Part shown: piece by piece, positions 448 to 41,511 of the stretch
How the letters are laid out: each line of letters begins with the position of its first letter
Position numbering within the stretch: the stretch's first letter is position 1
Source of the DNA: Leucothrix arctica
GTDB lineage: Bacteria; Pseudomonadota; Gammaproteobacteria; Thiotrichales; Thiotrichaceae
DNA length: 64,000 nucleotides
Assembly: GCF_003172895.1 (NCBI RefSeq)
Contig: NZ_QGKL01000010.1
Coordinates: forward strand, 62,001 to 126,000
Direction of reading: 5' to 3'
Notes under the pieces: model-generated
The model's database searches: none
What the model was told of the DNA's origin: nothing
What the model saw: only the letters and a program-made list of their open reading frames with translations
Program-made: the position numbers and the translations under genes

Positions 448-2697
448 ATGGATAACCAACATCTTGTCATTAACAATGGTAATGACGGTAAGCAGCTGTA
501 TATGTCTTCAGAGTTGCCTCAGCATGTAATGCCAACGCCTTCTGAGGGTGATCGTGACGATGAAATTGACCTTAAGGAGTTGTTCATTGTTTTAAGAAAG
601 CGCCTTTGGTTGATTATCCTTGTGGCGTTTCTAGTATTTGCGGCGTGTTTTGTTTTTACGTTAGGCATTGAGCCAACGTATAGAGCGTCAGCAAAAATCC
701 AGATTGAATCGGAAGATAGCGGACAGGTATTGAGTTTTGATGTGGCACTTGGAGAAAGTGGCAATGATGAATTTTACCAAACACAGTACGAATTATTAAA
801 GAGTTACACGCTAGCTAGCAAGGTTATTGATGACCTAGGGTTAGAGGAGTACTTCAGCTCAGGTTTAACGAGTGGTGGTGGGCTATTGGATAGGGTTGTA
901 AAAGTCTCTAAAGCGACTCTGTATGGCGAGGAAAAAGCTGCGGGGTTTCCGCTGGGAGAGTATCCAGCAGAGGAGCGTTTTATCTCTGGCTTGACGATTG
1001 CGCCTGTTAAGAAGTCTCAAATCGTAAAGGTGAGCTACGATAGTTCAGACCCTGAACTGTCGAAGAATATTGTTAATTCTATTTCTAAGCACTTTATTGA
1101 AATGACGTTAGCTAGGCGTTTTGATGCTGCGAAGGATGCGCAGAAGTTTTTGGACATAAAAGTGACTCAAGCGGCTAGTGACTTGGAGTTGTTGGAGCAA
1201 ACTCTGATTGATTATGCGAAAAAGGAATCTATTGTTCAGATCGATGGTGAGAGCTCTCAGAGTTTAAGTGCCCAAAAAACTGCAGAGTTGAGTGCTGCAC
1301 TGACAATAGCTCAGGGTGAGCGAATTGAGGCTGAGGCGCGTTATCGTGAGCTTAGCTCTTCTCAAGGGGTGGTAAGAGCGCTTGAAAGCCCTGCTTTGCA
1401 GTCGTTAAAGCAGACGGTTGTTGAGTTGCAAGGGGAGTATCAAAAAAACTTACAAAAGTATAAGTCAGGCTACCCATTAATGATCAGTATGCGGAAGCAA
1501 ATTTATCAATTCCAACAACAAATAGAGACTGAGACTGCGGCCATTAAAAGAGCGACAAGAGGTTCTTTGCAGGCTGTTTATTTAGCCGCTAAAGAGAAAG
1601 AGGCGAATTTAAAGTCTTCGTTAGGTCAGCAAAAAGATTTGTTACTGACTGAGCGTGATAAAGGAATTGAGTACGGAAGCTTGTTAAGACAGGTCAGTAT
1701 TAAGAGAAAAGTATATGAAGGATTGTTGCTACGTGCGACCGAGGTATCGATAGCGGCTGGGATAGGTACAAATAATATATCTGTAGTTGATTCCGCCATT
1801 TTGCCATACAAGGCTCAGTCACCAAATTTAAAAATGAACTTCGCTTTAGGCGGGGTTTTAGGCTTGATGTTAGGGGTGGTTATTGCCTTTTTACTTGAGT
1901 TTATGAGTAATGGGATTAAGTCTAGTGAGGAGCTTAAGAAGGCTCTGGGGTTGCCATTACTTGGTATTATTCCTATGGTTAAGGGGAAAGCGGGGAGTCA
2001 CTTCTTAGCAACATTTGATCATCCATCATCGGGTAGTGCTGAAGCTTTCCGTGCGGTACGAACAAACCTACTCTTTTCTAGTGCTGATGGTGTTCCTGAA
2101 GTCATTGCTGTGACAAGTTCTATTCCTTCAGAGGGTAAGTCTAGTAGCTGCATGAATATTGCGACTGCTTTTGCTCATGCGGGTAGCCGTGTTTTATTGG
2201 TTGATGCTGATATGAGAAAGCCGGTAGTTCATAAACAATTGAAGTTAGATAACTCTCTAGGTTTGAGTAGCTTCTTGTCTCATCAGGTTGAAATTGAAGA
2301 TGTTCTTCAAAAAACGCTTGTTGATGGCGTTTTTGCTATTACATCTGGGCCGATACCGCCAAACCCATCCGAGTTGTTATCAAGTAAGCGTTTGGAGAGT
2401 ATTTTTGATTTAGCCCCTGATCGTTTCGATATCATAATTGTTGATTCTCCACCTGTTATTGGCTTAGCAGATGCTTTGGTGATTTCAAACCGAGCGAAAG
2501 CGACTGTGCTCGTTTCTGCGTTTGATGCTGCTGATAAAAGAGCGATTCAAATAACTTTGGAGAAGTTGAAGCAGGCAAGGTCGAACTTATTAGGTGTTCT
2601 GTTCACCAAAGTTAAAGATGGCTATGGCTATTCATCGTACTACGGTGATGTTTACCAATACGAATATGGCGAGAATAATAAAAAATTGGCCGGATAG
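448..2697 (+). CDS. Wzc/GumC-type polysaccharide co-polymerase with tyrosine-kinase domain
   Basis: A 749-residue fused chain-length regulator and bacterial tyrosine kinase. An N-terminal Wzz domain has its first membrane segment near residues 54-72. A long periplasmic coiled-coil (GNVR-type) follows, and the second membrane segment is near 463-484. The cytoplasmic BY-kinase carries a Walker A (SIPSEGKSSS, near 557-566), Walker A' (LLVDADMRKP, near 583-592) and Walker B (IIIVDSPPV, near 664). The C-terminus holds a cluster of eight tyrosines (YGYSSYYGDVYQYEYG), the usual autophosphorylation tail. The family controls polymer length and couples polymerisation to export through a Wza-type channel, which here is the upstream gene. 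Length and domain order are normal. The polymer made cannot be told from this window. Confidence 0.93.
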   Translation: MDNQHLVINNGNDGKQLYMSSELPQHVMPTPSEGDRDDEIDLKELFIVLRKRLWLIILVAFLVFAACFVFTLGIEPTYRASAKIQIESEDSGQVLSFDVALGESGNDEFYQTQYELLKSYTLASKVIDDLGLEEYFSSGLTSGGGLLDRVVKVSKATLYGEEKAAGFPLGEYPAEERFISGLTIAPVKKSQIVKVSYDSSDPELSKNIVNSISKHFIEMTLARRFDAAKDAQKFLDIKVTQAASDLELLEQTLIDYAKKESIVQIDGESSQSLSAQKTAELSAALTIAQGERIEAEARYRELSSSQGVVRALESPALQSLKQTVVELQGEYQKNLQKYKSGYPLMISMRKQIYQFQQQIETETAAIKRATRGSLQAVYLAAKEKEANLKSSLGQQKDLLLTERDKGIEYGSLLRQVSIKRKVYEGLLLRATEVSIAAGIGTNNISVVDSAILPYKAQSPNLKMNFALGGVLGLMLGVVIAFLLEFMSNGIKSSEELKKALGLPLLGIIPMVKGKAGSHFLATFDHPSSGSAEAFRAVRTNLLFSSADGVPEVIAVTSSIPSEGKSSSCMNIATAFAHAGSRVLLVDADMRKPVVHKQLKLDNSLGLSSFLSHQVEIEDVLQKTLVDGVFAITSGPIPPNPSELLSSKRLESIFDLAPDRFDIIIVDSPPVIGLADALVISNRAKATVLVSAFDAADKRAIQITLEKLKQARSNLLGVLFTKVKDGYGYSSYYGDVYQYEYGENNKKLAG

Positions 2698-3027
2698 TGT
2701 TTTTAGGTTTTTAACTATTTTCCTTAAATAAATAGTTTCTTAATTGTTAATTAACTTCAGTTTCTCTAAGTGGTTTATTTTTAATAGTGGCTGCTCTCCA
2801 CTTGTGTCTGTCTATTGAGAAAAATCGTTTATTTCTTGGTGGTTTGTTTTTTTGGTGAGTTGAAATAGGTTTTTTAGCTTGTTATTTATGTTTGTTGTAT
2901 CAATAATAAATATTATCAGTCCCGTTATGTACTTTGCGTTTTGGTCGGAGTTATAATTATTCTCGTAGGGTGATTTTATTGTGTGTTCTTATAAGTCCGT
3001 AATTAATAAAGGTGTATGAGGTTTAAA
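2698..3027. other. 330-base AT-rich intergenic region without a recognisable gene
   Basis: I see no open frame with coding character here. A short inverted repeat, AACTATTT (2713-2720) with AAATAGTT (2730-2737), lies just after the wzc-like stop and may be a weak terminator, though it lacks a T run. A perfect TATAAT occurs at 2952-2957 but has no good -35 at the right distance. A promoter for the downstream lipoprotein gene is likely somewhere in this stretch, but I cannot place it firmly. Confidence 0.5.
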
Positions 3028-4824
3028 ATGAAATTTAATAAATTAGGTTTTTTCTTAGCGGGTTCTATCCTGTTGGGGGGATGTAGTAGTAGTAATGATC
3101 CTGAAGAAATTCAGCAGGCTGTATTGCAAGTCACCCCTGATGAGATAGCTTCAACGGTATCTCTTAGGTTGCAAGATGAGACTGGGGCAGGTGTAGCAGG
3201 AGTAATAGTATCCGTTGATGATCGTGACTTAGGTCTTATTGATGATGCTAGTGCTGAATTGACAACGAATGAATTTGGCTTCGTCTCTATTGTGTTAGCG
3301 GATGGTGTTAGCTCGGGTAGTTTACTCGTTACAGTAGATGACCCAGGCTTCGTTGAAGTAGCTCAAGAAGTCATTCTTGGTGAAGAAGCTGATGTCGAAG
3401 AGTTGTTAACACTTACCGCTTTACCAGAAGCTGGAGAGACAGCTGCTATCGTTGAGGTTAATGATGAAGGTGAAACTGAAGAAGTTATTTCATTAGCCAC
3501 TGAGCAGCCCTTTGTAGAGGAAGTTGTTGAAGTTGTTGATGATGAAGGTATTGCCGTATCAGTCCAAGGTAGTGTGTCTCGAATTGAAGAGACGACGGCA
3601 GATGAAGGTGAAGAAAGCACAGTGGTCGCTGAGATTTTGGTTCCTGAGTTGGTTGAGTTAAAGACAGAGGACGGAGAGCCCTCTGTTGGTGAGATTACTG
3701 TAACCGCCGCAGTCTATCAAAACTCTTCAGATGTAGCTTTGGACGCTTTTCCAGGTGGTCTTGAAGCTGGCGATAGCCTAGAGAACGAGTCTGAGGCACC
3801 TGAGGTTATCGTTTCTGATGATGCTCAAGAGTCAGATACAACAGGCTTTATTTCTGCTGGCTTTGTATCACTTGAAGTAACTGATTCTGAGGGTAAGGAT
3901 ATTACTCAGTTCGATGGCTCAACAGGGGTGGATATAGATGGTGACGGGGTTGAAGAGCAAGGCTTGCTGCTTACTTCCTTAGTATCTAAAGAAACAATAA
4001 ACCCAAATACTAACGAACTGGTTGCTATTGGCGATTCAATTCCTGTGTGGAGCTATGATGAAGAGACGGCAAAATGGACCTATGACGGTGAGGCTAATGT
4101 TTTTGAAGAGGCAGATAGTGATAACCTGAGAGCAAGATTTGCTGTAACTCACCTTAGTTATTGGAGCTTAGCATTTCGTGTTCCATACTGCTTTGGCATA
4201 AATGTTGTTGTATTTAGGACGCCAGACGGTGCTGTTGATCGCCGCCAATTGTCTGTAAATACAAGGTTAGATGCGGGTTATTCACGTACTACAAGGGTTA
4301 ACGGTGATGGCTTTTTATTAAGCATTAGATCTCCGCGAGAGAATGTGAAAATGACAGTATATGACCGAGCATCAGGGGAAGATATTGATATTCTTACTGT
4401 TAACGGTAACGAATATAGTCCTGAAGTGGGGTATAACTTTTGTCCAACTGATTTTGAGCTTCTAAAAAATGTTGTTCTCGAAGCCGCCCCCGTTACGGTT
4501 GATGTAAATGTTCAGGTTGAAACATCATGTCGTGATGAGTCATTAGATGAATTTCAAGCACCTCAGGCAGTAGCTAATTCAACGGTGTATCTACTTGATG
4601 AGGCTGGTCAGAGTGTAGTTTCATCGAGTCAGTCTGATACCGATGGCTTGTTGACATTTTCTGGTTTGGATGAAAACACGGCTTACAATATCTTTGCATC
4701 AGATAGTGTGACGTTTGGCCCACCGGTAGTTATACCATTTACACCAGGTACCGCATCTGATCCTCTTGTTGTTGACTTTGAGCAAGAATGTGTAGTCACC
4801 ACTGGTAGTGTTGGTGGTAACTAA
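3028..4824 (+). CDS. Large acidic lipoprotein with Ig/carboxypeptidase-regulatory-like modules, unknown function
   Basis: The product has a lipoprotein signal peptide with lipobox LLGGC, followed by a serine/asparagine stretch, so it is probably anchored in the outer membrane. I chose ATG 3028 over ATG 3016 because GAGG at 3018-3021 sits six bases ahead of it. The mature protein is very acidic and rich in Val, Glu and Asp. Two segments look like beta-sandwich regulatory modules: VSVDDRDLGLIDDASAEL near the N-terminus and STVYLLDEAGQSVVSSS near the C-terminus. A middle block (IPVWSYDEETAKWTYDGEA, then THLSYWSLAF) resembles a pattern seen in other bacterial surface lipoproteins. It lies between the Wzc-like kinase and yjbH, so a role in surface polysaccharide is plausible by position only. 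No enzymatic motif was recognised. Confidence 0.75.
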   Translation: MKFNKLGFFLAGSILLGGCSSSNDPEEIQQAVLQVTPDEIASTVSLRLQDETGAGVAGVIVSVDDRDLGLIDDASAELTTNEFGFVSIVLADGVSSGSLLVTVDDPGFVEVAQEVILGEEADVEELLTLTALPEAGETAAIVEVNDEGETEEVISLATEQPFVEEVVEVVDDEGIAVSVQGSVSRIEETTADEGEESTVVAEILVPELVELKTEDGEPSVGEITVTAAVYQNSSDVALDAFPGGLEAGDSLENESEAPEVIVSDDAQESDTTGFISAGFVSLEVTDSEGKDITQFDGSTGVDIDGDGVEEQGLLLTSLVSKETINPNTNELVAIGDSIPVWSYDEETAKWTYDGEANVFEEADSDNLRARFAVTHLSYWSLAFRVPYCFGINVVVFRTPDGAVDRRQLSVNTRLDAGYSRTTRVNGDGFLLSIRSPRENVKMTVYDRASGEDIDILTVNGNEYSPEVGYNFCPTDFELLKNVVLEAAPVTVDVNVQVETSCRDESLDEFQAPQAVANSTVYLLDEAGQSVVSSSQSDTDGLLTFSGLDENTAYNIFASDSVTFGPPVVIPFTPGTASDPLVVDFEQECVVTTGSVGGN

Positions 4825-4849
4825 TGCCAATTAGTTTGGTATAAAAAAT

Positions 4850-4882
4850 AAAGGCAGCTCTGGAAACAGAGTTGCCTTTTTT
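4850..4882 (+). terminator. Rho-independent terminator after the lipoprotein gene
   Basis: AAAGGCAGCTCTG pairs with CAGAGTTGCCTTT across a GAAA tetraloop, with a single G-T wobble, and is followed by a T run. It begins 25 bases after the stop at 4824 and ends 35 bases before yjbH. The lipoprotein transcript probably ends here, so yjbH is likely either separately promoted or reached by read-through. Confidence 0.88.
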
Positions 4883-4917
4883 GGTTGTAAAAAGATAACT
4901 TTCGAGGGATTTGGAAG

Positions 4918-6948
4918 ATGAGTTTTAAATATTTGAGTTCACTAACTCTAGGGATGATGGTGCTGAGTAGCGATGTTCTCTTGGCCGATGATGTAACTTA
5001 TACGGGCGCAACTGGTACCCTGTTTTTACCAAATGCTAATACCTTGGAGCAAGGGCGATTTGCTTATCAGTACAATAACTTCGGTGAAGAATTTTATAAA
5101 GATCAGTACAGTGAAACCTTTAATCACGTTATGACGATAGGGTTAACGCCTTTTTTAGAAATAGGGGGGCGTTTAACCGAATATTATAATCCTGGTCAGG
5201 TCCAAGATAACGGTATTAATGCAGGACGAAGAGATTTGTCCGCTAATGTTAAGGTGAAGTTACCTAAGCTTGGTTATGGTCTGCCAGATTTTGCCATAGG
5301 GGCGAATGACATTGCGGGTCAAGCTGTTCATTTTCGTAGTCAATATATTGTGGGTACGAAAGAGCTAGGAAAAGGTGTCTTTTCCATAGGTTATGGTGCT
5401 GGGGATAATCCTGAGTTAGAAGGTGCTTTTGCAAGTGCAAAGTATGATGTAACCAATAGTTTTAGCGTTATGGCAGAGTACGCGTCAGATAAGTATAACC
5501 TTGGTGCAAAGTATGATTTTAGCCAGTTATTGAAGTTACCCGTGGCTTTCACTGCAAGTATGCCTTTTGGTTCAGAAAACGATGACCATGACGAGTTAGT
5601 AGTTGGATTGTCTGTGTCGAAGTCTATAACAGCAGATAAGCGAAATAATGAAATTTCTAATAAAACCCCATTATCTTTTGACAGTAAAGGTGATGATTTT
5701 AGTTCATTGCTGGCAACGCTTAAGTCTTATGGTTTAGAGAGGATTTCATTGGGTAAAACTGCTAATGGTGAGTTAGTGATTGCCTATGAAAATAAAGTTT
5801 ATAATCATAGTTATTTAGATGGTATGGCCTTGGTTGCTGGAGCGGCGCTTAGGTATGTTAAGCACGATACAATGATTAATTTGGTTGTACTCGATAATCA
5901 GCTTGCGAAGCTTGCAGTGCGATTTCCATTGGTGACGCTTAAGGATTATTTTGTTAAAAATGATCTAAAGAGCAGGGCGCGGTTTACAGATCGGTTACGG
6001 GTTTGGTACCCAACGCAGGCATTTTTATCGCCTAAGCGCGTTCAGTGGCTTGAGGGTATGGCTTCAAAAAATAAAACTTGGTTTGATATAAGCATTCAAC
6101 CTAAGGTGAAGACTGTTATAGGTCATGAGTGGTCTGAGGGTGAATACTCATTGGCTGCAAGAGCTGATCTTGATGTGCCTTTGTGGCGTGGTGCTAGTTT
6201 GCATGTTGCAGGCTCTGCTCCAGTTTCAAATAGTACTCTGTTTGATGATGGGCGTGTCTTTGCCCAGTCGCGCCAACAGTCAGGTTTAAATGAAGCTTTG
6301 ATTCAGCAGGTGATTAAACCTTCAAGTACTTCTGTTGTTGCTGGTAGTGCAGGAGTATTGGAAGTACAAAACGATATGTACTATACCTTGCAATCAGAAG
6401 CTAGTTTGACGTCAAGTTCAGGAAATTCGGGGATATATGCCAAAGCCGCTACTTTTGAATCAAAGGATGATAGTGACTCTGATTTAATTAATGTGGGTTT
6501 GGTTTCTGTGAGACAGGATTTTCCGAAGTATGCGGCGAGTGTAGAGCTTGGTTATGGTAAGTTCTTTGAAGAAGATACCGGAATTAGGTTAGACCTTACT
6601 CGACAATTTGGTGCCGCAGATGTTTCTAGCTACGTTAAATATCTTGATACAGATAATATTGAGGCAGGGCTTCAACTTACCCTACCTTTGACACCGAGAA
6701 AAGACTTCAAACGTGGGGCTTTACTCGTAAGAGGTAATGAGCACTGGTCTTATAGTCAAGGTTCAACTATTAAAGACCCTTTAGTGAGTGGCGGTAACCC
6801 TATTCGTTTAAATAAGCTTCAGAACCCAGCATCTCATAAAAATCTCAAAGATGATTTTTATGAGAATCAACGTTTAAGTCCTGCTTACTTAAAAGCAAAT
6901 GTTCATAGGCTACGCGAAGCTTATGTTAATCTGAATGGCAGACGATAA
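4918..6948 (+). CDS. yjbH: YjbH-family outer-membrane protein (exopolysaccharide-associated)
   Basis: A 676-residue protein with an N-terminal signal peptide (hydrophobic stretch to about VLLA). The start of the mature protein (TGATGTLFLPNANTLEQGRF, then LTPFLEIGGRLTEYYNPG) is typical of the YjbH/DUF940 family, whose members are predicted beta-barrel outer-membrane proteins. Many alternating hydrophobic/polar strands ending in Tyr, Phe or Leu run through the sequence. In Escherichia coli yjbEFGH is an exopolysaccharide operon, and here the gene follows Wza- and Wzc-like genes, so a role in polysaccharide secretion is likely. GAGGGA at 4904-4909 supports the ATG at 4918. YjbE, YjbF and YjbG homologues are not next to it. 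The exact function of the family is not established. Confidence 0.85.
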   Translation: MSFKYLSSLTLGMMVLSSDVLLADDVTYTGATGTLFLPNANTLEQGRFAYQYNNFGEEFYKDQYSETFNHVMTIGLTPFLEIGGRLTEYYNPGQVQDNGINAGRRDLSANVKVKLPKLGYGLPDFAIGANDIAGQAVHFRSQYIVGTKELGKGVFSIGYGAGDNPELEGAFASAKYDVTNSFSVMAEYASDKYNLGAKYDFSQLLKLPVAFTASMPFGSENDDHDELVVGLSVSKSITADKRNNEISNKTPLSFDSKGDDFSSLLATLKSYGLERISLGKTANGELVIAYENKVYNHSYLDGMALVAGAALRYVKHDTMINLVVLDNQLAKLAVRFPLVTLKDYFVKNDLKSRARFTDRLRVWYPTQAFLSPKRVQWLEGMASKNKTWFDISIQPKVKTVIGHEWSEGEYSLAARADLDVPLWRGASLHVAGSAPVSNSTLFDDGRVFAQSRQQSGLNEALIQQVIKPSSTSVVAGSAGVLEVQNDMYYTLQSEASLTSSSGNSGIYAKAATFESKDDSDSDLINVGLVSVRQDFPKYAASVELGYGKFFEEDTGIRLDLTRQFGAADVSSYVKYLDTDNIEAGLQLTLPLTPRKDFKRGALLVRGNEHWSYSQGSTIKDPLVSGGNPIRLNKLQNPASHKNLKDDFYENQRLSPAYLKANVHRLREAYVNLNGRR

Positions 6949-6961
6949 TTTTTTGTAAGAG

Positions 6962-8248
6962 TCATATGTTTCTAGACATTACTTTAGATTTTCTACTGGA
7001 GTTATAGAGGGCCTTTTTGTGTGATGGAAGGTTCTCTATACTATCTGACACAAAGCCACGTTCTTTAAACCAATCTATTGATTGTGTGGTAAGGCATATT
7101 AGCTTTTTAACGTTTGCTTTTTTAGCCAGTGCTATAATATGGCTGACTAGTTTTATTCCTCTTTGTCCTGATCTGTAATCCTTGTGTATTGCTAAACAAG
7201 CTAACTCTGCGGACCTGTTTTCTTCAATGATGTATAGCGCTGCGCAGCCGATTACTTTCCCATCACGCTCAATAATGCTGAAGTTTGCAATATCAAGCTC
7301 TACTTGTTCCCTTGATCGTTTGGTTAAAATACCTTGATCTTCTAGTGGCCGAATCAGGTCCAAAATTCCTTGTACATCATCGATACTAGCTTCTCTTGGC
7401 TCGTCATACTGACTGTTGTCAATCATGGTGCCAGTACCATCGCGGGTATATAGCTCAAGCAGTAACCCGCCATCTGTATCAGCTGCGATCAAATGGGCGC
7501 GCTCAACACCATTGCGCATGGCGTGGCTGATTTCTTGGAACATCTGTTCATTAGAGGTGCTTTTGATTTCATCCAGCTTCTTTAGATTTAGCTCTTCGGG
7601 TAGTTCAGGCAAGTTTGTTTTGTCGTGAATGAAAATAAGCTTGTCCGCTTTAAGCTTGCTGGCAGTAAAGCCCGCGACTTCTTCAAACCGTAAGTTATAA
7701 ATTTGTCCCGTAGGGGAATAGCCCAATGGCGAGAGTAATACGATATTGCCGTTTTCCAGTAATTGCTCAAGTTGTAGCTCGTTAACTTTACGTACTTTTC
7801 CAGTATGCAGATGGTCAAAGCCATCAATAACACCAACCGGTTTTGCGGTTAAGAAGTTCCCAGAGATAATACCTAGGCTGTTGTTAACAATAGGTGGTCG
7901 GTTTAATGCTCGGTTTAGATGGTTTTCAATTTCGAGCCTTGCCGCACCAATCGCAGCCTTGGATAGCTCAAGTGTCTTGTCGTCGGTAATCCGCAAGCCG
8001 TTGTGAATGATACCTTGGTGTTTATGAGCAGTTAGCTGTGCCTCAATCTGTGCGCGTGCACCGTGAACGAGAATGATGCGAGCCCCAAGTGTTGACAGTA
8101 GGGCTACATCACTAAGCAGCTTACGAATCGCGTCATGTTGTAAAATGCTGCCCGAAATGGCGATAACGAACGTTTTTCCCCGATGCATGTGAATGTAGGG
8201 AGCGGCTTCCCGAAAGAAACCAACTAAGCTGCTGTGATTGAATGACAT
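6962..8248 (-). CDS. argA: Amino-acid N-acetyltransferase (N-acetylglutamate synthase)
   Basis: Makes N-acetylglutamate from glutamate and acetyl-CoA, the first step of arginine synthesis. The 428-residue protein has the two-part ArgA layout. The N-terminal amino-acid-kinase-like domain contains FREAAPYIHMHRGKTFVIAI and ILVHGARAQIEAQL, and provides arginine feedback binding in the family. A C-terminal GNAT domain from about residue 285 has LACLAIHKDYRSGQRGIKLV as its acetyl-CoA loop and LTTQSIDWFKERGF near the end. Length is close to the usual 430-445. It lies 35 bases downstream of yraN on the same strand and may be co-transcribed with it. It converges on yjbH with only 13 bases between the stops, and I saw no terminator there. 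Confidence 0.93.
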   Translation of the reverse strand: MSFNHSSLVGFFREAAPYIHMHRGKTFVIAISGSILQHDAIRKLLSDVALLSTLGARIILVHGARAQIEAQLTAHKHQGIIHNGLRITDDKTLELSKAAIGAARLEIENHLNRALNRPPIVNNSLGIISGNFLTAKPVGVIDGFDHLHTGKVRKVNELQLEQLLENGNIVLLSPLGYSPTGQIYNLRFEEVAGFTASKLKADKLIFIHDKTNLPELPEELNLKKLDEIKSTSNEQMFQEISHAMRNGVERAHLIAADTDGGLLLELYTRDGTGTMIDNSQYDEPREASIDDVQGILDLIRPLEDQGILTKRSREQVELDIANFSIIERDGKVIGCAALYIIEENRSAELACLAIHKDYRSGQRGIKLVSHIIALAKKANVKKLICLTTQSIDWFKERGFVSDSIENLPSHKKALYNSSRKSKVMSRNI

Positions 8249-8283
8249 GTTTGGTTCGACTATGTTGTAAGTGGTGAGTAGCC

Positions 8284-8673
8284 CTAAAAGCCATCAAATG
8301 CGCTAGGGATCCAATTAATTTCATTATCACCCTCGATGGCGACAACGTCAAAACGCATACAACTCTTTGGCGCATACTTTTGATGGTAAAAAAGTGCAGT
8401 ACGAATGATCTTTCGTTGCTTACTTCGGGTAACGCTCGCTGCCGCCCCTCCAAAGTCTTTATTCCGTCTAAATCGCACTTCTATAAATACTAAGCTTTCA
8501 CCCTGCTGCATAATGAGATCAATCTCGCCCATGCGGCAGCTAAAGTTCTGGGTGATCAGCGTGAGTCCTTGTGCTTGTAAGTATTCACACGCTCGCTGCT
8601 CTTGTGACTCGCCTTTAAGTTGGCGAGTGGTCGCAGCGGCAGTGGTTTTTGGTGTATATTGCTGCTCGTTCAT
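8284..8673 (-). CDS. yraN: YraN family (UPF0102) nuclease-fold protein
   Basis: A 129-residue protein with the YraN signature: EQRACEYLQAQGLTLITQNF, then GEIDLIMQQGESLVFIEVRF. The E, D and ExR pattern is that of the restriction-endonuclease-like fold, but the family's biochemical role is not known. The gene is divergent from rsmI, the arrangement also seen in Escherichia coli. The first residues (MNEQQYTPKTTAAATTRQLKG) are low in complexity and may be a disordered leader. It is followed closely by argA on the same strand. Confidence 0.92.
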   Translation of the reverse strand: MNEQQYTPKTTAAATTRQLKGESQEQRACEYLQAQGLTLITQNFSCRMGEIDLIMQQGESLVFIEVRFRRNKDFGGAAASVTRSKQRKIIRTALFYHQKYAPKSCMRFDVVAIEGDNEINWIPSAFDGF

Positions 8674-8754
8674 GGGTGTACGTCGTTTATTTTTATAGTG
8701 TTAAATACCTTAGCATGTGACGCTACGCCAGACACTTTTGACAGGAAATATGGT

Positions 8755-9600
8755 ATGCAAATCGAAGCCGGCACTTTATATATAGTAGCGACTCCTATCG
8801 GTAACTTGGGTGATATGACGCATCGTGCAATAGAAGTATTGTCTGGTGTAGATAAAGTGTGCGCTGAGGATACGCGTAATAGCCGACGCTTATTAACTCA
8901 TTTTGGTATTCAGCAAACGCTTGTGGCGATACATGACCATAATGAGCGAGATAAGCTTGGCCAGTTGACAGAGTGGTTGAAAGCGGGTGAGAGCTTGGCC
9001 CTTATAAGTGATGCCGGTACGCCATTAATTAGTGACCCTGGTTATCATCTTGTGCAGCATCTGCGTAAAGAGGGTGTCAAAGTTGTCCCAATCCCAGGTG
9101 CAAGCGCCATTATCGCGGCTTTGTCAGTTGCTGGCTTGGCGACTGACCGTTTTGTCTTTGAAGGTTTCTTGCCTGCTAAGACGGTTGGTCGTAAGCAGAT
9201 GTATCAAAAGGCGACGCAGCAAACGTGTACTCAAGTTTATTACGAGTCAAGTCATCGCATAGTGGCGAGTGTGCGTGACTTGATCGATATTATTGAGCTA
9301 GATCGGCAGGTTGTAGTGTGTCGTGAACTAACAAAGTTGTTTGAACAGTCATTCGCGGGAACCGCTACAGAGTTACTAGATTGGTTAGAATCTGACTCAA
9401 ATCATCAAAAAGGTGAGTTTGTGTTGATGATTCAGGGCGCGCTCCCCACCGAAGAAACATCGGGCATGGCATTGGAGCCGTTATTGAAGCTGTTGATGGC
9501 TGAGCTATCAGTCAAGCAAAGTGCTGGTTTAGCGTCCAAAATCACCGGTGAAAACAAAAACGCCTGTTATAAAAAGGCAATGGCGCTGAAAGAGCTATGA
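8755..9600 (+). CDS. rsmI: 16S rRNA (cytidine1402-2'-O)-methyltransferase
   Basis: Methylates the ribose of C1402 in 16S rRNA using SAM. The 281-residue protein opens with AGTLYIVATPIGNLGDMTHRA, the hallmark of the tetrapyrrole-methylase-like RsmI family. It also has CAEDTRNSRRLL, LISDAGTPLISDPG and PIPGASAIIAAL. I placed the start at ATG 8755, preceded by AGGAAA at 8742-8747. The longer frame from 8620 would read back into yraN on the opposite strand and adds nothing conserved. Length agrees with E. coli RsmI (286). rnpB follows 28 bases after the stop. Confidence 0.95.
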   Translation: MQIEAGTLYIVATPIGNLGDMTHRAIEVLSGVDKVCAEDTRNSRRLLTHFGIQQTLVAIHDHNERDKLGQLTEWLKAGESLALISDAGTPLISDPGYHLVQHLRKEGVKVVPIPGASAIIAALSVAGLATDRFVFEGFLPAKTVGRKQMYQKATQQTCTQVYYESSHRIVASVRDLIDIIELDRQVVVCRELTKLFEQSFAGTATELLDWLESDSNHQKGEFVLMIQGALPTEETSGMALEPLLKLLMAELSVKQSAGLASKITGENKNACYKKAMALKEL

Positions 9601-9628
9601 TGCATCAGTCTTCTTTGTTAGTATCCCG

Positions 9629-9979
<351 letters not shown>

Positions 9980-9989
9980 ACTTCTTTTG

Positions 9990-10761: not shown

Positions 10762-11700
10762 ATGGCTGATGACTTTCAACATGTGACGGTGTTGCTAGAT
10801 GCAGCCGTCGACGCACTATCAGTAAAGCCTGATGGGATTTACATCGATGGTACGTTTGGCCGGGGCGGGCACACACGAAAAATTATTGAGCAATTAGGAG
10901 CAGAGGGGCGCTTGCTAGTTGTAGATAAAGACCCGCAGGCTATAGCAGTTGCAAAAGAATTATACGGCGATGATCCACGAGTAAGTATTTACCATGGTTC
11001 GTTTGCGGAGTTTGATCAGGCGCTAGCAGATGCAGGGTGGCCACAGGAGGTGGACGGTGTGTTGTTGGATTTAGGTGTTTCATCACCACAGATTGATGAT
11101 GGAACGCGTGGTTTTAGTTTTCAACGTGATGGTGCGTTGGATATGCGAATGAATCCTGAGCAAGGTATGTCAGCTGCAGAGTGGTTAGCGACGGCGAAAG
11201 ACACGGAAATTATGGATGTGTTGTGGAAGTACGGGGATGAACGTTTTGCTCGCCGTATTGTTCGACAGATTATTGAAACTCGCGAGACAGAACCGTTAGT
11301 AACAACTATGCAACTGGCTAAGTTAATCGCTGGTGCGGTACCTCGTAAATTTCATGGGAAAAAGAATCCAGCAACAAAAAGCTTTCAGGCGATTAGAATT
11401 TTCATTAATCAAGAGTTAGCGGATTTGGAGAAGTGTTTAGAAGACGGTGCTAAAGCGTTGGTAATGAATGGTCGCATGGTTGTTATAAGTTTTCATTCTT
11501 TAGAAGACCGAATGGTTAAACGTTACTTCAAGGCACAGTCAACGCCAAAGCCAGTTCCGAGAGGGCTGCCAATTCTAGAAAGTGATATCGAGCTACCATT
11601 TCGTACGATAGGAAAAGCAATAAAGCCGAGCACGGATGAAGTATCAGAGAATATCCGGTCACGTAGTTCGGTAATGAGAATTTTAGAGAGGAAGGCATGA
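10762..11700 (+). CDS. rsmH: 16S rRNA (cytosine1402-N4)-methyltransferase
   Basis: Methylates N4 of C1402 in 16S rRNA, the same nucleotide targeted by RsmI encoded upstream in this window. The 312-residue protein has HVTVLLDAAVDAL at the start, the SAM-binding IDGTFGRGGHTRKIIEQLG, then LLDLGVSSPQIDDGTRGFSF, RGFSFQRDGALDMRMN, and RIFINQEL. The C-terminus has VISFHSLEDRMVKRYF. A purine-rich AGGAAATAGG precedes the ATG. Its stop overlaps the ftsL start by four bases, so the two are translationally coupled. Confidence 0.97.
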   Translation: MADDFQHVTVLLDAAVDALSVKPDGIYIDGTFGRGGHTRKIIEQLGAEGRLLVVDKDPQAIAVAKELYGDDPRVSIYHGSFAEFDQALADAGWPQEVDGVLLDLGVSSPQIDDGTRGFSFQRDGALDMRMNPEQGMSAAEWLATAKDTEIMDVLWKYGDERFARRIVRQIIETRETEPLVTTMQLAKLIAGAVPRKFHGKKNPATKSFQAIRIFINQELADLEKCLEDGAKALVMNGRMVVISFHSLEDRMVKRYFKAQSTPKPVPRGLPILESDIELPFRTIGKAIKPSTDEVSENIRSRSSVMRILERKA

Positions 11701-37200: not shown

Positions 37201-38185
37201 GGCTGGCGAGACTGTTTACAGTAACGCACGTGTGACCTTGCATCAGTTCTGGTCAGAAGCTAGTTACCGTATGCAGTCGCTACGTGATAACACGGAGTGT
37301 GCCGATCAAGAATTTGAACGCATTGCAGATGCAAAAGATACAGGTTTGTTCGCAGACCTAAGTTTTGATGTAAATGAAGATATTACGGCTGATTTGATTG
37401 CGTCTGGTAATCGTCCAGCAGTGGCGATCTTGCGAGAGCAGGGCGTTAACGGTCAGATCGAAATGGCAGCAGCATTCGATAAAGCGGGCTTCCGTACCGT
37501 TGATGTTCACATGACTGATGTACTAAGCGGTCGCGTGTCATTCGCTGACTTTAAGGGCTTAGTTGCTTGTGGTGGTTTCTCTTACGGTGACGTATTGGGC
37601 GCTGGTGGCGGTTGGGCAAAAACTATTTTGAACAATGAGAAAGCGAGTCAGGCATTTAGCGAGTTCTTTGAACGTGAAGATACGTTTGCGCTGGGTGTCT
37701 GTAACGGTTGTCAGATGTTGTCTCAGTTGAAGCACATGATCCCGGGTGCATCGCACTGGCCATCATTCTACCGTAACCACTCTGAGCAGTTTGAAGGACG
37801 TGTGGCTATGGTTGAGGTGACTGAGTCGCCGTCTGTATTCTTGCAAGGCATGGTTGGTTCTAAGATGCCGATTGCTGTGGCACATGGTGAAGGTCGTGCT
37901 GTGTTTGATACTGAGGTGTCGATTGACGCACTAGTGGCTGCACAGAAAGTAGCGCTACGTTATGTTGATGCACAAGGTCAGGCGACTGAACACTATCCTG
38001 AGAACCCGAATGGTTCTGTGGGCGGATTGACAGGTCTGTGTAGTGATAACGGTCGTGTGACGATTATGATGCCTCATCCTGAGCGTGTGCAGCGTGCTGT
38101 GACTAACTCTTGGGCTCCTGATGAGTGGGCGGAAGATGGCGCGTGGATGCGTATGTTCCGTAATGCTCGTGTTTGGGTTGGTTGA
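34292..38185 (+). CDS. purL: Phosphoribosylformylglycinamidine synthase
   Basis: Single-chain FGAM synthase of purine synthesis, which converts FGAR, glutamine and ATP to FGAM. At 1297 residues it has the normal large gammaproteobacterial form. It contains an N-terminal PurS-like part, the synthetase core with [35 protein letters not shown] and [17 protein letters not shown], and a C-terminal glutaminase domain. The nucleophile is C1137 in GVCNGCQM, with HGEGR and MPHPERV completing that domain. A partial decayed copy of its glutaminase region lies 1.0 kb downstream. The start has no obvious Shine-Dalgarno sequence. Confidence 0.98.
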
Positions 38186-38199
38186 TTAGGTAGTGAGTT

Positions 38200-38242
38200 G
38201 TGCTAGTTGAGGGTGGAATACCTTCTGTCATTCAGCTAGCAC
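38200..38242. repeat. Inverted repeat just after purL
   Basis: GTGCTAGTTGA (38200-38210) pairs with TCAGCTAGCAC (38232-38242), eleven pairs including one G-T, with a 21-base loop. It starts 15 bases after the purL stop. It could be a terminator, but no T run follows, so it may instead be a boundary or a stabilising hairpin. Confidence 0.6.
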
Positions 38243-38272
38243 TGACTTTAAGAGAAATTCTGGAGGGGGGTT

Positions 38273-38434
38273 ATGGCGCAGTTATCATGTCCTAAGTGTG
38301 CAGGTATATCTAACGGGAAAAGAGGTTTCTGGCTCTGGTTTTTTGTAATCATTCTGTTTCCAATTGGTTTGGTGCTATTACTTCTTAAGCCGAAATATAC
38401 TTGTTCTAAATGTGGCTTTATGTTCAAGCAGTGA
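38273..38434 (+). CDS. 53-residue zinc-ribbon membrane protein
   Basis: A short gene with a strong Shine-Dalgarno (GGAGGGGG, about 38262-38269) before ATG 38273. The product begins MAQLSCPKCAG, continues with a basic turn and a single hydrophobic segment at about residues 19-38 (FWLWFFVIILFPIGLVLLLL), and ends with YTCSKCGFMFKQ. The two CxxC pairs (C6/C9 and C44/C47) would come together to bind one zinc at the membrane face, giving a hairpin-like layout. I do not recognise a named family. It lies 73 bases before the PlsY-like gene and could be co-transcribed with it. Confidence 0.7.
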   Translation: MAQLSCPKCAGISNGKRGFWLWFFVIILFPIGLVLLLLKPKYTCSKCGFMFKQ

Positions 38435-38507
38435 TGACAGTGCCTAAAGTGCTATAACAGCGTTGTTGTTTAGCGATGAAGTAAATAAATCTTAGAAGGG
38501 TAAGACG

Positions 38508-39134
38508 TTGGTGGATATTGTGAAGTTAATGCTAGCCCTATCTTCTGGGTATTTACTAGGTAGCCTAAATACTGCTTTGATTGTTAGCCGCTTTTATGGA
38601 AAAGATATTAGGCAGCATGGTAGCAAAAGTGCTGGGCTGACTAATACACTTAGAGTGCTTGGGAAATCTGCGGCGGCTTTTGTTCTAGTCGGTGATATTT
38701 TAAAAGGGGTAATAGCTTGTTTAATTGGGTTATACCTCAGTGTCTACTTCTATTCTGAAAGTGCACAAGTTTGTATAAGTCTGCTAATTGCTGGCACAGG
38801 TGCTGTAGTAGGGCATAACTGGCCCGTATTTTTTGGATTTAAAGGCGGTAAAGGAGTGCTTACAGCGGTCACTGTATTGTTTATGGTGAACTGGCTTATG
38901 GCGCTAATATGCCTTGGTTTCTTCGTACTAATCGTTGCTTCAACAAGGTACGTTTCTCTTGGTTCAGTATGCGCAGCTATGCTCTTTGTAGTTCTCTCTT
39001 TTTTCCCAGTATTTGAAAGTACCTTTTATTTTAACCTTTTTGCTTGTTTCATGACTGCGATGGTTGTTTTTAAACATAGGGAAAATATCCGAAGACTACT
39101 ATTAGGGACAGAGAATAAATTAAGGCTTAGATAA
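38508..39134 (+). CDS. PlsY-family acyl-phosphate:glycerol-3-phosphate acyltransferase, divergent
   Basis: A 207-208 residue polytopic membrane protein with the PlsY layout: GSLNTALIVSRFYGKDIR near the start, DILKG near 64-68, GHNWPVFFGFKGGKGV near 103-118, and KHRENIRRLLLGTENKL at the C-terminus. PlsY transfers acyl groups from acyl phosphate to glycerol 3-phosphate in phospholipid synthesis. The first active-site loop reads GSKSAGLTN instead of the usual GSGNPGATN, so activity or substrate may differ. The start is TTG 38508 or GTG 38511, with GAAGGG at 38495-38500. It lies in an accessory stretch between intact purL and a purL remnant, not in the usual tsaD neighbourhood. Confidence 0.85.
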   Translation: MVDIVKLMLALSSGYLLGSLNTALIVSRFYGKDIRQHGSKSAGLTNTLRVLGKSAAAFVLVGDILKGVIACLIGLYLSVYFYSESAQVCISLLIAGTGAVVGHNWPVFFGFKGGKGVLTAVTVLFMVNWLMALICLGFFVLIVASTRYVSLGSVCAAMLFVVLSFFPVFESTFYFNLFACFMTAMVVFKHRENIRRLLLGTENKLRLR

Positions 39135-39151
39135 AGTTGTATTTGGAATTG

Positions 39152-39327
39152 TAAGGTTTCTATTATGGTTGTGTACTTGGTGCTGGTGGTGTTTTCAGAT
39201 TTTTTTAGTTAGAAAGCACATGATTTCGGGTGTATCGCACTGGCCACCAGTTTACCGTAACCGCTTTGAGCAATTTGAAAGTCTTGTGTAATGGTTGAGG
39301 TTATTGAGTAGCAGTCTGTATTCTTTC
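39152..39327 (+). pseudogene. Decayed partial copy of the purL 3' region
   Basis: Bases 39215-39284 match purL 37731-37800 at 58 of 70 positions without a gap, and the match continues past a one-base deletion to about 39327 (GTCTGTATTCTT is shared). Upstream, 39152-39189 matches purL 37571-37608 more weakly, with about 117 bases of purL missing between the two blocks. The frame is destroyed by the deletion, which creates a TAA at 39288, and by TCG to TAG further on. Most differences in the main block change the amino acid, as expected for neutral decay. The plsY-like and zinc-ribbon genes lie between the intact gene and this remnant. Confidence 0.88.
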
Positions 39328-39420
39328 TGAGTGGTGCTCTCAGGGTTTTAAATGATCGAATTATGCGGGCGTTAGTCACATTAAATTGATATTCGAAATA
39401 TTGAATTCTAGGAGAGACTG

Positions 39421-40275
39421 TTGATACAAGCAAAATTTTATGAAACATACTACTTCTGCAATATTATACGAAATATACTGCATGACCAGTTTTCTTATCT
39501 TGTGAATTTAAACGAATTCTATGGCGATGGAGCTTACATAAATCTAGTAGGTCCGTTTGATAGGTACTCTTCACTTCATCAATTTATCGAGTTTATAGTA
39601 GATGATGTTTTTTATGAAAATGCGTCATCCGTAGATTTAGATAAGAGAAAAAATAACTTAGAACGATTATCTAGTCTTCCTACTGCCCTAAGAGGTGATG
39701 AGTATAGGCAATTGCCAATTGAGTTAGCTCTGGAATTTCACAACATTAAGCATGAATCATTTGAGGCTTATTTGGTTGGGAAGAGTAAGGATTTCTTGAG
39801 TTGTGATGAAGATGATATCTATGATTATATGGCTGAGCTTCGATTTACTGGCGAATACGAAGCTTTAATCGACCAAACTGTTAAAGAAGTCTTTCATGTG
39901 TTGTACCAGAATAGGGAATTAATGCTGCTTTTCAATGATATGGTTTCAAGAAATATAGAGTATCAAGTTGAAGATGGCATTCCTGACAGTGTGAGTAAGC
40001 TATTTAAAAAAAACGGGACGCTACTGCGCAAAACAATCCCAAAATGGGTTCAAAGAGCCGTGTTTTTTAGAGATAGAGGGCGGTGTGTTTTGTGTGATAA
40101 AGATCTTTCCGGGTTAATAAATTTAGAAAATTATGATCATATAGTTCCGCTGGCTAGACATGGTCTCAATGATATTTCCAATATTCAGCTTTTATGTAGA
40201 GAGTGTAATAATAAAAAAAGAGCGGGTAGCCCTACCACGTCTAATACATATCAATCTTGGTATGCGTATGATTAA
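39421..40275 (+). CDS. Orphan HNH endonuclease with a novel N-terminal domain
   Basis: A 284-residue protein starting at TTG 39421, with AGGAGA about six bases upstream. The C-terminal part (about 205-272) is an HNH nuclease domain: RAVFFRDRGRCVLCDKDLSG with a CxxC pair, YDHIVPLARHGLNDISNIQLLC with the catalytic DH, and CRECNNKK closing the zinc site. The first 200 residues are mostly helical and acidic (FLSCDEDDIYDYMAELRF), and I do not recognise them. No methylase, restriction partner or phage gene is adjacent. Base composition is clearly AT-richer than the core genes, suggesting transfer. Defence or mobile-element function is possible but not shown. Confidence 0.75.
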   Translation: MIQAKFYETYYFCNIIRNILHDQFSYLVNLNEFYGDGAYINLVGPFDRYSSLHQFIEFIVDDVFYENASSVDLDKRKNNLERLSSLPTALRGDEYRQLPIELALEFHNIKHESFEAYLVGKSKDFLSCDEDDIYDYMAELRFTGEYEALIDQTVKEVFHVLYQNRELMLLFNDMVSRNIEYQVEDGIPDSVSKLFKKNGTLLRKTIPKWVQRAVFFRDRGRCVLCDKDLSGLINLENYDHIVPLARHGLNDISNIQLLCRECNNKKRAGSPTTSNTYQSWYAYD

Positions 40276-40383
40276 ATGCAGTAAGGTCAATTAGAAGTTA
40301 TAAGAAATAACTATGTTTTTTCTGTTTAGACTTAACACACTAAAATTCGAGGCTTCCTAAATCGCTAAATAAACGACTTTCGT

Positions 40384-40455
40384 TTCAGTGATTCACAGCC
40401 TAAGCAGCTCCTTATGCCCTTCCATGTTGATACCTCGAGCACGTAACAATGTGTT
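40384..40455 (-). pseudogene. Short remnant resembling an IS256-family (mutator) transposase
   Basis: Read on the minus strand, this stretch gives RARGINMEGHKELLRL, a stop, then ITE. The GINMEGHKELLGLW-type block is characteristic of IS256-family transposases, and here Gly has become Arg and Trp a stop. The frame does not continue recognisably on either side, so only a few dozen codons survive. The match is from memory of the family motif and is short. It lies between the HNH gene and the toxin gene. Confidence 0.55.
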
Positions 40456-40465
40456 CCTGTTAAGG

Positions 40466-40759
40466 TCAGGTGTAATTATTCTGTCTTTGGTGCTTAATTC
40501 TAAGAATACCCACAATCTCCACAACATCATGCACTTTATAAAGCGCAGAGTAGCCAGACTTTCCATAAGGAATATGGATTTGACGAATACCAGAATGTTC
40601 TTCATACTTCGTGCCGATTTTAGGGTTATCAGCTAGGTTTTCCAACATCATTCTTAGATGATCTACACCTTTGGATTCACCTGTATTTTGAACTTCAAAC
40701 GTAATCAACTCACGTAGGTCGTTAGCGGCTTCAGTAGTATAACGAATTGAATAGCTCAT
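40466..40759 (-). CDS. RelE/ParE-family toxin
   Basis: A 97-residue basic protein with the ParE/RelE fold pattern: MSYSIRYTTEAANDLREL at the start, LRMMLENLADNPKIGTKY in the helical hairpin, then IRQIHIPYGKSGYSALYKV and the last strand VEIVGILRIKHQRQ. Such toxins inhibit gyrase or cleave mRNA. The ParE-type spacing and C-terminal IKHQRQ favour ParE, but I cannot decide. It lies two bases downstream of its antitoxin gene on the same strand, as usual for these pairs. Confidence 0.85.
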   Translation of the reverse strand: MSYSIRYTTEAANDLRELITFEVQNTGESKGVDHLRMMLENLADNPKIGTKYEEHSGIRQIHIPYGKSGYSALYKVHDVVEIVGILRIKHQRQNNYT

Positions 40760-40761
40760 AT

Positions 40762-41025
40762 TTACTTCTTCTGTAATGTGTTCTTTAGCTGGTCAAGTTC
40801 ATCATTCATTTCTTCTGCTGTGTAAGCATAGCCCTTTTCTTCGGCATTTTTTAAAGCATCTACACCAGATTGTAGCCATGCTTTTTCGTCTTCAATAGCT
40901 TGCTTTGACTCTCTTACGTATTTCTTAATTGCTTCGAGCATGACCCAGTGAGGTGAGCGACCTTGTTCATCAGCAAGGAACTTCACATCATTGATAATTT
41001 CGTCTGTTAGTTTGATGGTTGTCAT
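40762..41025 (-). CDS. Ribbon-helix-helix antitoxin (ParD/CopG-like)
   Basis: An 87-residue acidic protein beginning MTTIKLTDEIINDVKFLADEQGRSPHWVMLEAIKKYV, which is a ribbon-helix-helix DNA-binding domain. An acidic C-terminal tail (AYTAEEMNDELDQLKNTLQKK) would bind the toxin. ATG 41025 is chosen over TTG 41040 because the family begins with this Met. The promoter and an operator-like palindrome lie just upstream, consistent with autoregulation by the complex. The gene precedes the toxin, separated by two bases. Confidence 0.85.
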   Translation of the reverse strand: MTTIKLTDEIINDVKFLADEQGRSPHWVMLEAIKKYVRESKQAIEDEKAWLQSGVDALKNAEEKGYAYTAEEMNDELDQLKNTLQKK

Positions 41026-41066
41026 ATCTAGTACCTGCAATTCAGGAGTTTGAAAATTATAATTAA

Positions 41067-41096
41067 TTTATAACAACTAGTGTTACCTTGTGTCAA
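41067..41096 (-). promoter_or_regulatory. Promoter of the toxin-antitoxin pair with operator-like palindrome
   Basis: On the minus strand TTGACA (complement of 41091-41096) and TATAAA (complement of 41067-41072) are 18 bases apart, a near-consensus sigma-70 promoter. Between them lies TAACA-N5-TGTTA (41071-41085), an inverted repeat suitable for a ribbon-helix-helix dimer. Confidence 0.7.
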
Positions 41097-41135
41097 TCTT
41101 GTTTGGCTTTGATCAGTAAGCTTTGGCTTAGTCAT

Positions 41136-41166
41136 AAAAAAAGGGACTCAAACGAGTCCCTTTTTT
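41136..41166. terminator. Bidirectional terminator-like hairpin
   Basis: AAAAAGGGACTC pairs with GAGTCCCTTTTT around AAAC, flanked by A and T runs on both sides, so it can act in either direction. It lies upstream of the antitoxin promoter and 25 bases past the DUF2892 gene stop. On this minus strand neighbourhood it would mainly stop transcripts coming from the antitoxin side antisense or from the left. Confidence 0.75.
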
Positions 41167-41190
41167 GTGTTCTATCTAAAGTTAATCTAT

Positions 41191-41394
41191 TTACTTATCA
41201 GTAAACAAATTCAACTTTTGATAAAGCATCGTCATTGGGCAGAAGCCAGTAAACGCAGACTGCATAATACCTGCACCTATAAGAACAAGTAGCCAAATGA
41301 AGCCTGAGCTGATCATTGTAAGAATAGATGCGATCAAGATTAGTGCGCCGTTACCAAGTGTTACAGCATCACTCATATTTAGATTGTCTAGCAT
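41191..41394 (-). CDS. DUF2892 (YgaP membrane-domain-like) small membrane protein
   Basis: A 67-residue protein starting at ATG 41394, with AAGGAGA upstream. The start further out at 41454 has no such site. Two hydrophobic segments (ALILIASILTMISS and FIWLLVLIGAGIMQSAF) are followed by TGFCPMTMLYQKLNLF, the motif of DUF2892 proteins and of the membrane part of YgaP. In YgaP this part follows a rhodanese domain. Here it stands alone, while a membrane rhodanese (yibN) is encoded 2 kb away. Function is unknown. Confidence 0.8.
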   Translation of the reverse strand: MLDNLNMSDAVTLGNGALILIASILTMISSGFIWLLVLIGAGIMQSAFTGFCPMTMLYQKLNLFTDK

Positions 41395-41511
41395 TTCAGT
41401 GTCTCCTTGAGGGATTAGATACCTTGATGTAGGAATGTTAACTACATGTTTCACTGAATACTTTTTACCATAGATTCCTGAAAACCTAAAGAAAACTTGT
41501 ATCTCAGTGGC

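Follow-up and report, generated by a model that had tools for sequence, protein, structure and literature searches.

The gene at positions 39421 to 40275 of a 64,000-nucleotide stretch of the Leucothrix arctica genome (hereafter the window, meaning this stretch at its full length) encodes an HNH protein of 284 residues, which, judged from its sequence and from the surroundings of its relatives, is taken with slightly better than even confidence to be a rare, mobile, single-gene defence nuclease. The gene lies in a horizontally acquired insert, its HNH active site is complete, its coding sequence shows purifying selection, and a homologue in Salinivibrio siamensis forms a one-gene integron cassette. 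Homologous loci and genomes are designated below by L and G numbers, respectively.

The gene and its HNH domain

The gene and its parts are as follows.

39410..39415, + strand: AGGAGA, Shine-Dalgarno-like, read from the sequence
39421..40275, + strand: HNH nuclease gene, 284 aa, TTG start (ORF reading, Pfam, conserved coding against the Salinivibrio homologue L002)
39421..40020, + strand: N-terminal domain, residues 1-200, without a known family (profile searches, alignment, low-confidence models)
40084..40224, + strand: HNH domain, residues 222-268, with CxxC, DH, N and CxxC-N (Pfam, alignment)

Residues 222-268 match the Pfam families HNH (1.5e-09) and HNH_5 (2.5e-09). In an alignment of five full-length sequences, C222xxC225, D239-H240, N254 and C259xxC262-N263 are invariant, and the window protein thus carries the residues that characterize the beta-beta-alpha metal fold of the HNH superfamily (DH, N and the zinc CxxC pairs). 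Together with the putative ribosome-binding site ahead of the start, these observations bear out the initial annotation, which described an open reading frame with a complete HNH site. The sequence TCTAGGAGA is also read ahead of the Salinivibrio cassette gene. A comparison of the window gene with this homologue gives a pS of 0.885, which is saturated, and a pN of 0.147. For the first 199 codons taken by themselves, the values are 0.898 and 0.170, respectively. The saturated pS against the low pN indicates that the frame encodes a protein constrained in both halves and is not a chance ORF. The L. arctica genome contains one copy of the gene. Consensus promoter matches around the gene number 11 versus 10.2 in shuffled sequences, and no clear promoter is recognized there.

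The N-terminal domain

No family above the cut-off is found for residues 1-200 in Pfam, NCBIfam, PADLOC or PHROGs, as anticipated by the initial annotation, in which the first ~200 residues were likewise unrecognized. The NCBIfam, PADLOC and PHROGs matches of the window protein are confined to the HNH domain and a short segment ahead of it. The N-terminal part is nevertheless conserved, with YYFCN at its start and EVFHxLxQNR..FN at its end, and YYFCN (10-14), E156-V-F158, Q163-N-R165 and F171-N172 are invariant among the five full-length sequences. AlphaFold models obtained with 4 and 5 sequences have mean pLDDT values of 48.5 and 50.3, and even the HNH part is poorly modelled, so nothing is taken from them beyond a mostly helical character; on this basis, the N-terminal domain is probably helical. 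In a Foldseek search, the first model (mean pLDDT 48.5) returned no match at E <= 0.001 and 22 at E <= 10. Among solved structures, the sequence search matches IscB-like and other HNH proteins in their HNH parts only.

An acquired insert between purL and ygaP

The surroundings of the gene contain the following features.

38186..41190, no strand: acquired insert of ~3 kb, from purL to ygaP-gpsA (junction comparison, GC profile)
38508..39134, + strand: second PlsY-type acyltransferase, a neighbour outside the function (Pfam)
39214..39325, + strand: purL remnant, non-coding, a second purL 3' region (112 nt, 84-89% identical to purL 37730-37842)
39366..39375, + strand: CGGGCGTTAG, similar to the R' (3') end of integron attC sites, with no intact attC partner
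40466..40759, - strand: ParE/RelE-type toxin, a neighbour (PF05016, 4.7e-11)
40762..41040, - strand: presumed RHH-type antitoxin ORF, a neighbour (below the Pfam cut-off)
41137..41166, + strand: hairpin resembling a terminator, at the insert's right edge, a sequence also present beside ygaP in G029

The HNH gene is located in an intergenic insert, and the adjacent purL is complete (1297 aa). The gap between purL and ygaP measures 3005 nt in the window genome versus about 60-95 nt in the congeners G028 and G031; the absence of the insert rests on these two relatives, in which the purL-ygaP junction is readable. In G029 and G030, ygaP is present and purL is absent from the remaining 2.4 and 0.9 kb of the contigs, which indicates that the junction may be a variable spot. 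Beyond ygaP in two congeners (L042 1462-3854 and L044 1378-2236), no purL and only short ORFs are seen. The GC content of the HNH gene (0.349) is below those of the window (0.44) and purL (0.485), and the GC profile drops to about 0.35-0.39 over 39000-41500.

The initial annotation had proposed an AT-rich, acquired gene with a purL remnant, a toxin-antitoxin pair and a transposase remnant as neighbours and with no methylase, restriction or phage gene adjoining. Most of this picture is confirmed: the GC content, the 84-89% identity of the remnant to the 3' region of purL and the ParE-type match accompanied by an RHH-type ORF agree with it, and a reading of the ORFs in the window by eye reveals no adjoining methylase, restriction or phage gene. 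The absence of the insert from G028 and G031, together with a full-length copy in only 1 of the 63 genomes of the order, supports the arrival of the gene with a foreign insert of ~3 kb. The transposase remnant, in contrast, is not substantiated, as its place is taken by two small ORFs without a Pfam match, and the insert has no DNA match among 72,556 plasmids. The decayed purL piece beside the complete gene suggests that the insert entered by recombination between homologous purL sequences.

The insert also holds a short zinc-ribbon-like ORF. Its PlsY-type glycerol-3-phosphate acyltransferase, which is 38% identical to the core copy, is odd cargo for a small insert, and the window genome is the sole one among the 63 genomes of the order with two PlsY matches.

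Distribution of homologues

The distribution of the full-length family is very patchy. Within the order, 21 of the 63 genomes match at E <= 0.001, of which 20 match in the HNH domain only, and the full-length protein is found in the window genome alone. In the class sample, 10 of 369 genomes match at 1e-8, the family members being the window genome and G217 and the rest matching at the HNH level. A profile search of the phylum sample yields the window genome and G666 (2 of 398). The class of G666 contains matches in 2 of 337 genomes, one of them HNH-only, and its order in 2 of 239 (G666 and G1142); in the order of G217, the match is G217 itself (1 of 2). A peptide-pattern scan of one genome per species (84,980 species), which picks up close relatives only, reveals three full-length homologues (74, 59 and 46%) and one HNH-only match.

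Among the plasmids, 8 of 72,556 records match, comprising two full-length Rhizobium places and six partial ones. The viral contigs contain one full-length relative (L063): the window protein as the query finds two loci, both HNH-only, L063 finds its own contig only, and A1, L053 and L004 find no full-length relative. The phage collections likewise give no full-length match, and the partial ones lie at the HNH domain and, in a few cases, also in the segment before it.

In addition to the window protein, eight independent full-length homologues were collected (L002, L003, L004, L019, L053, L056, L063 and L070, with L020 counted as the same lineage as L019), of which the closest four are 38-75% identical and the rest 31-34%. 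Two distant plasmid relatives, L021 and L022, are kept outside this count because their N-termini align poorly. The family is rare and spans Gammaproteobacteria, Alphaproteobacteria and, more distantly, Bacillota.

The Salinivibrio homologue as an integron cassette

The homologue of Salinivibrio siamensis (L002) is a one-gene cassette that lies exactly between attC sites at 9916-9982 and 10870-10918. Nine strict attC-like sites are present on the strand of the gene (+) and none on the - strand, versus a mean of 0.0 in 30 resampled sequences, and an IntI fragment (TIGR02249, 1.8e-26, below the full-length cut-off) is found on the left side. The locus therefore combines two attC sites, a single orientation and a nearby integrase, the features of an integron gene cassette. 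The DNA similarity between the window and L002 begins at 9986, 6 nt inside the cassette, with the crossover read by eye. The adjoining cassette encodes an Mrr_cat protein (a modest match, 1.8e-05), for which PADLOC gives no match. This stretch (8455-9914) contains two overlapping ORFs, possibly for a nucleotide-binding protein (by eye, no Pfam match) and the Mrr_cat nuclease, and is possibly another unlisted two-gene defence cassette.

The window copy is not in an array, and the absence of attC sites from the 64 kb rules out a living cassette. The sequence CGGGCGTTAG is the sole match to SGGGCGTTAR in the window (0.26 expected) and resembles the terminal bases of several attC sites; for the looser GGCGTTAR, 6 occurrences are counted versus 3.4 expected. 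As the motif was picked after the sequence had been seen, CGGGCGTTAG hints at a cassette boundary that has been lost but does not prove it.

Elsewhere in the window genome (G000), contig C44 encodes a full integron integrase at 2496-3440 (L040; 429 bits versus a cut-off of 265), and attC-like sites are found near contig ends on C34, C4 and C6, which suggests a chromosomal integron broken by assembly. The integrase stands beside a gene that reads by eye as lysS. Additionally, a repeated element beside it (L040 190-2162), also present on C7 and C34, looks like an IS91-type transposase with a 288-aa tyrosine recombinase, and an equal recombinase score recurs at three contig ends of this genome. 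One report (PMC12409362) describes integron arrays as a reservoir in which small defence genes are found; the primary papers are reportedly those of Darracq et al. and Kieffer et al.

Genomic neighbourhoods

At least one recognized restriction or anti-phage gene is present within 10 kb of seven of the eight independent full-length homologues, the exception being L004; with L021 and L022 added, the count is 7 of 10. The neighbours were picked by eye for the protein-family scans, and those of L004 and the other neighbours in the window were judged from their translations. The homologue contexts were surveyed for placement in core regions, and they are instead found near restriction or anti-phage genes in seven of eight cases, one of these seven being the integron cassette.

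In Methylophaga (L003), a divergent MzaB gene (1.9e-87) lies 197 bp from the homologue, with a tRNA-Leu on the other side. The Rhizobium plasmid L019 and its sister L020 carry dcm, vsr, a restriction enzyme, an MzaB-like ATPase (5.8e-51) and an SNF2-type helicase. In L056 (G666), genes like MzaC, MzaD and MzaB are accompanied by Dcm and another HNH gene, and Vsr is 38 bp off. The homologue of L053 (G217) is in an island beside a tRNA-Met with an integrase, and a HEPN_RiboL-PSP gene (2.6e-14) is the next gene downstream, followed by hsdM, hsdS, an ATPase and hsdR. L070 (G1142) contains DrmA (1.3e-99), DrmB (1e-31), a NERD helicase and a vsr gene whose stop overlaps the start of the homologue by 4 bp; no PADLOC methylase is found among its scanned neighbours. 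The viral contig L063 has AbiJ (5.3e-11), a HEPN match below the cut-off and a cytosine methylase, which may be the phage's own. For Psychromonas (L004), the translations read by eye reveal no defence gene. L021 and L022 have no clear defence neighbours, and L021 has a PemK/MazF-type gene. No defence gene is located near the window copy.

In L070, DrmA-DrmB, the NERD helicase, Vsr and the homologue form one cluster (1128-9519). In L019 and L020, the HNH frame is lost at different points in plasmids that are otherwise similar; this loss would reflect repeated inactivation or a frameshift, and the HNH part of the Rhizobium copies looks disrupted.

Of 249 sampled genomes, 11 contain MzaB (E <= 1e-20), yet it occurs within about 4 kb of 3 of the 8 homologues (L003, L019 and L056). 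With identities of only 30-34% among the three MzaB proteins, these links look independent. The window's own genome lacks MzaB. The homologue stands alone in four loci (the window, L002, L003 and L056), and no partner gene is conserved across the loci, so that no single system can be defined. A two-gene system was considered and rejected, as the HEPN genes by L053 and (weakly) L063 and the ORF after L004 are mutually dissimilar in BLASTP. The neighbourhood argument is one of guilt by association, as HNH genes are a frequent component of mobile DNA in general. In three control loci with unrelated HNH genes (L057-L059), scanned against a small reference set of our own, an hsdM-like match (L057) and an integrase (L058) were found, so the background of defence neighbours is above zero.

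Comparison with known systems

The window protein shares the complete CxxC-DH-N-CxxC arrangement of HNH_5 and HNH (PF14279 and PF01844) above the cut-off, whereas its N-terminal domain of ~200 residues lies outside every model tried. Its best PADLOC match, as for 7 of the 9 relatives scanned, is REase_II (PDLC03478), a 219-position model of a type II restriction enzyme that covers the HNH domain and, in some proteins, a short segment before it. However, this match reaches only 18-33 bits, the N-terminal half is unmatched, and no cognate methylase is conserved beside the homologues. The cognate methyltransferase expected alongside a type II restriction enzyme is not found near the window gene, and none is present beside the homologues of L003 and L004 on the stretch read, which in L003 is cut by the contig end.

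PtuB of Septu is likewise a small HNH protein of a defence system, and the match to it is weak and limited to the HNH domain (window protein, 0.0008; a distant relative, 2.9e-07); PtuA, an ATPase, stands beside PtuB, whereas a reading of the window reveals no ATPase ORF adjacent to the gene. The HNH domain is of a sub-type similar to that of IscB and Cas9 (IscB model, 5.6e-08), but the score is 32 bits versus a cut-off of 175 and no RuvC match is found. Unlike the HNH-SAVED proteins of CBASS, the window protein has no Pfam SAVED match, and PADLOC SAVED_HNH matches at the edge of the HNH domain only (0.11). The Salinivibrio homologue, between its two attC sites, resembles the anti-phage cassettes of chromosomal integrons, whereas the window copy has no intact attC or array. 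In contrast to homing endonuclease genes, the window gene lies in no intron or intein and interrupts no target gene.

Discussion

A defence role, with DNA as the substrate, sensing by the N-terminal domain and autonomous action, is what we infer for this protein. The C-terminal HNH zinc finger would cut or nick nucleic acid, most likely incoming DNA, and the N-terminal domain would decide when or where this occurs by recognizing a feature of foreign or modified DNA or a signal of infection. As no methylase of its own would be needed, the protein may be a solitary restriction-like enzyme or an infection-triggered effector. Islands, plasmids and prophages carry the gene along, and in at least one case it has travelled as an integron cassette. 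Autonomy is argued from the one-gene cassette and the four loci in which the homologue stands alone, and a role on DNA beside restriction is argued from the Vsr and MutL-like neighbours. Of the stand-alone defence nuclease proposed by the initial annotation, the stand-alone part is upheld by the Salinivibrio cassette and the lack of a conserved partner, and the defence part is favoured by neighbourhood context alone.

An unlikely alternative is that the protein assists restriction or MutL-like ATPase systems as an accessory nuclease, supplying extra cleavage for a nearby Dcm, Vsr, MzaB or DrmA and persisting as a leftover where it is alone. The overlap with vsr in L070, the 38 bp from vsr in L056 and the three nearby MzaB genes are consistent with such a role, as are the MORC/MutL-type restriction-modification operons with HNH and Vsr nucleases described in the available part of a survey (PMC2292703). 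However, the divergence of the MzaB proteins, the differences between the systems (MZA-like, type I restriction-modification and DrmA/B) and the lack of MzaB in the window's own genome speak against it, and the one-gene cassette argues for autonomy. An RNA-cutting effector, whose HNH domain would cleave tRNA or another RNA in infection so that the cell halts phage growth, is less probable again. HEPN-type genes, which are often RNases, adjoin the homologue in L053 and, weakly, in L063. An RNA role is made conceivable by Septu Ec-B88, a system that requires the PtuB HNH motif and cleaves tRNA-Tyr (PMC13096335), and the PtuB matches point the same way. These matches are nevertheless restricted to the HNH domain, the window contains no PtuA-like partner, and neighbours of the restriction-modification type fit DNA better.

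The very patchy distribution, the insertions at tRNA genes, in plasmids and in a viral contig, and the best PHROGs matches, which are phage HNH endonucleases, would also suit a selfish or mobility nuclease (a homing enzyme or recombination helper) that merely accumulates in islands. This is improbable, as no interrupted target gene, intron or intein surrounds the window gene, the PHROGs matches span the HNH domain only, the loci are at unrelated sites, and the Salinivibrio cassette moves by IntI and attC and not by its own nuclease. That the window copy is a decaying, unexpressed passenger brought by purL-flanked recombination is very improbable: no promoter is clearly recognized, the attC, if any, has been lost and the Rhizobium relatives are disrupted, but the frame with its start, the ribosome site and every active-site residue are intact, and constraint across the family is strong.

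A bolder form of the defence-nuclease reading is offered only tentatively. The protein would be a one-protein anti-phage system in which a new helical sensor domain is joined to HNH, fully autonomous, travelling alone as an integron cassette and adding itself repeatedly, as an extra effector, to MutL-like/Dcm/Vsr, DISARM-like and type I restriction islands. PMC12458937 describes fusions of Vsr-type nucleases with YprA-family helicases, and the available part of it contains nothing like the window protein. Searches of open-licence PMC papers only revealed no description of this protein, which, given their scope, is weak evidence of novelty.

If the defence reading is true, the family would provide a compact, portable defence enzyme of which the N-terminal two thirds is nameless in profile libraries, and integron cassettes and restriction islands would be connected through it. 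The N-terminal domain would then represent a new kind of trigger for an HNH nuclease, and a positive test in one laboratory strain would annotate the copies that are left unnamed by profile-based defence finders such as PADLOC.
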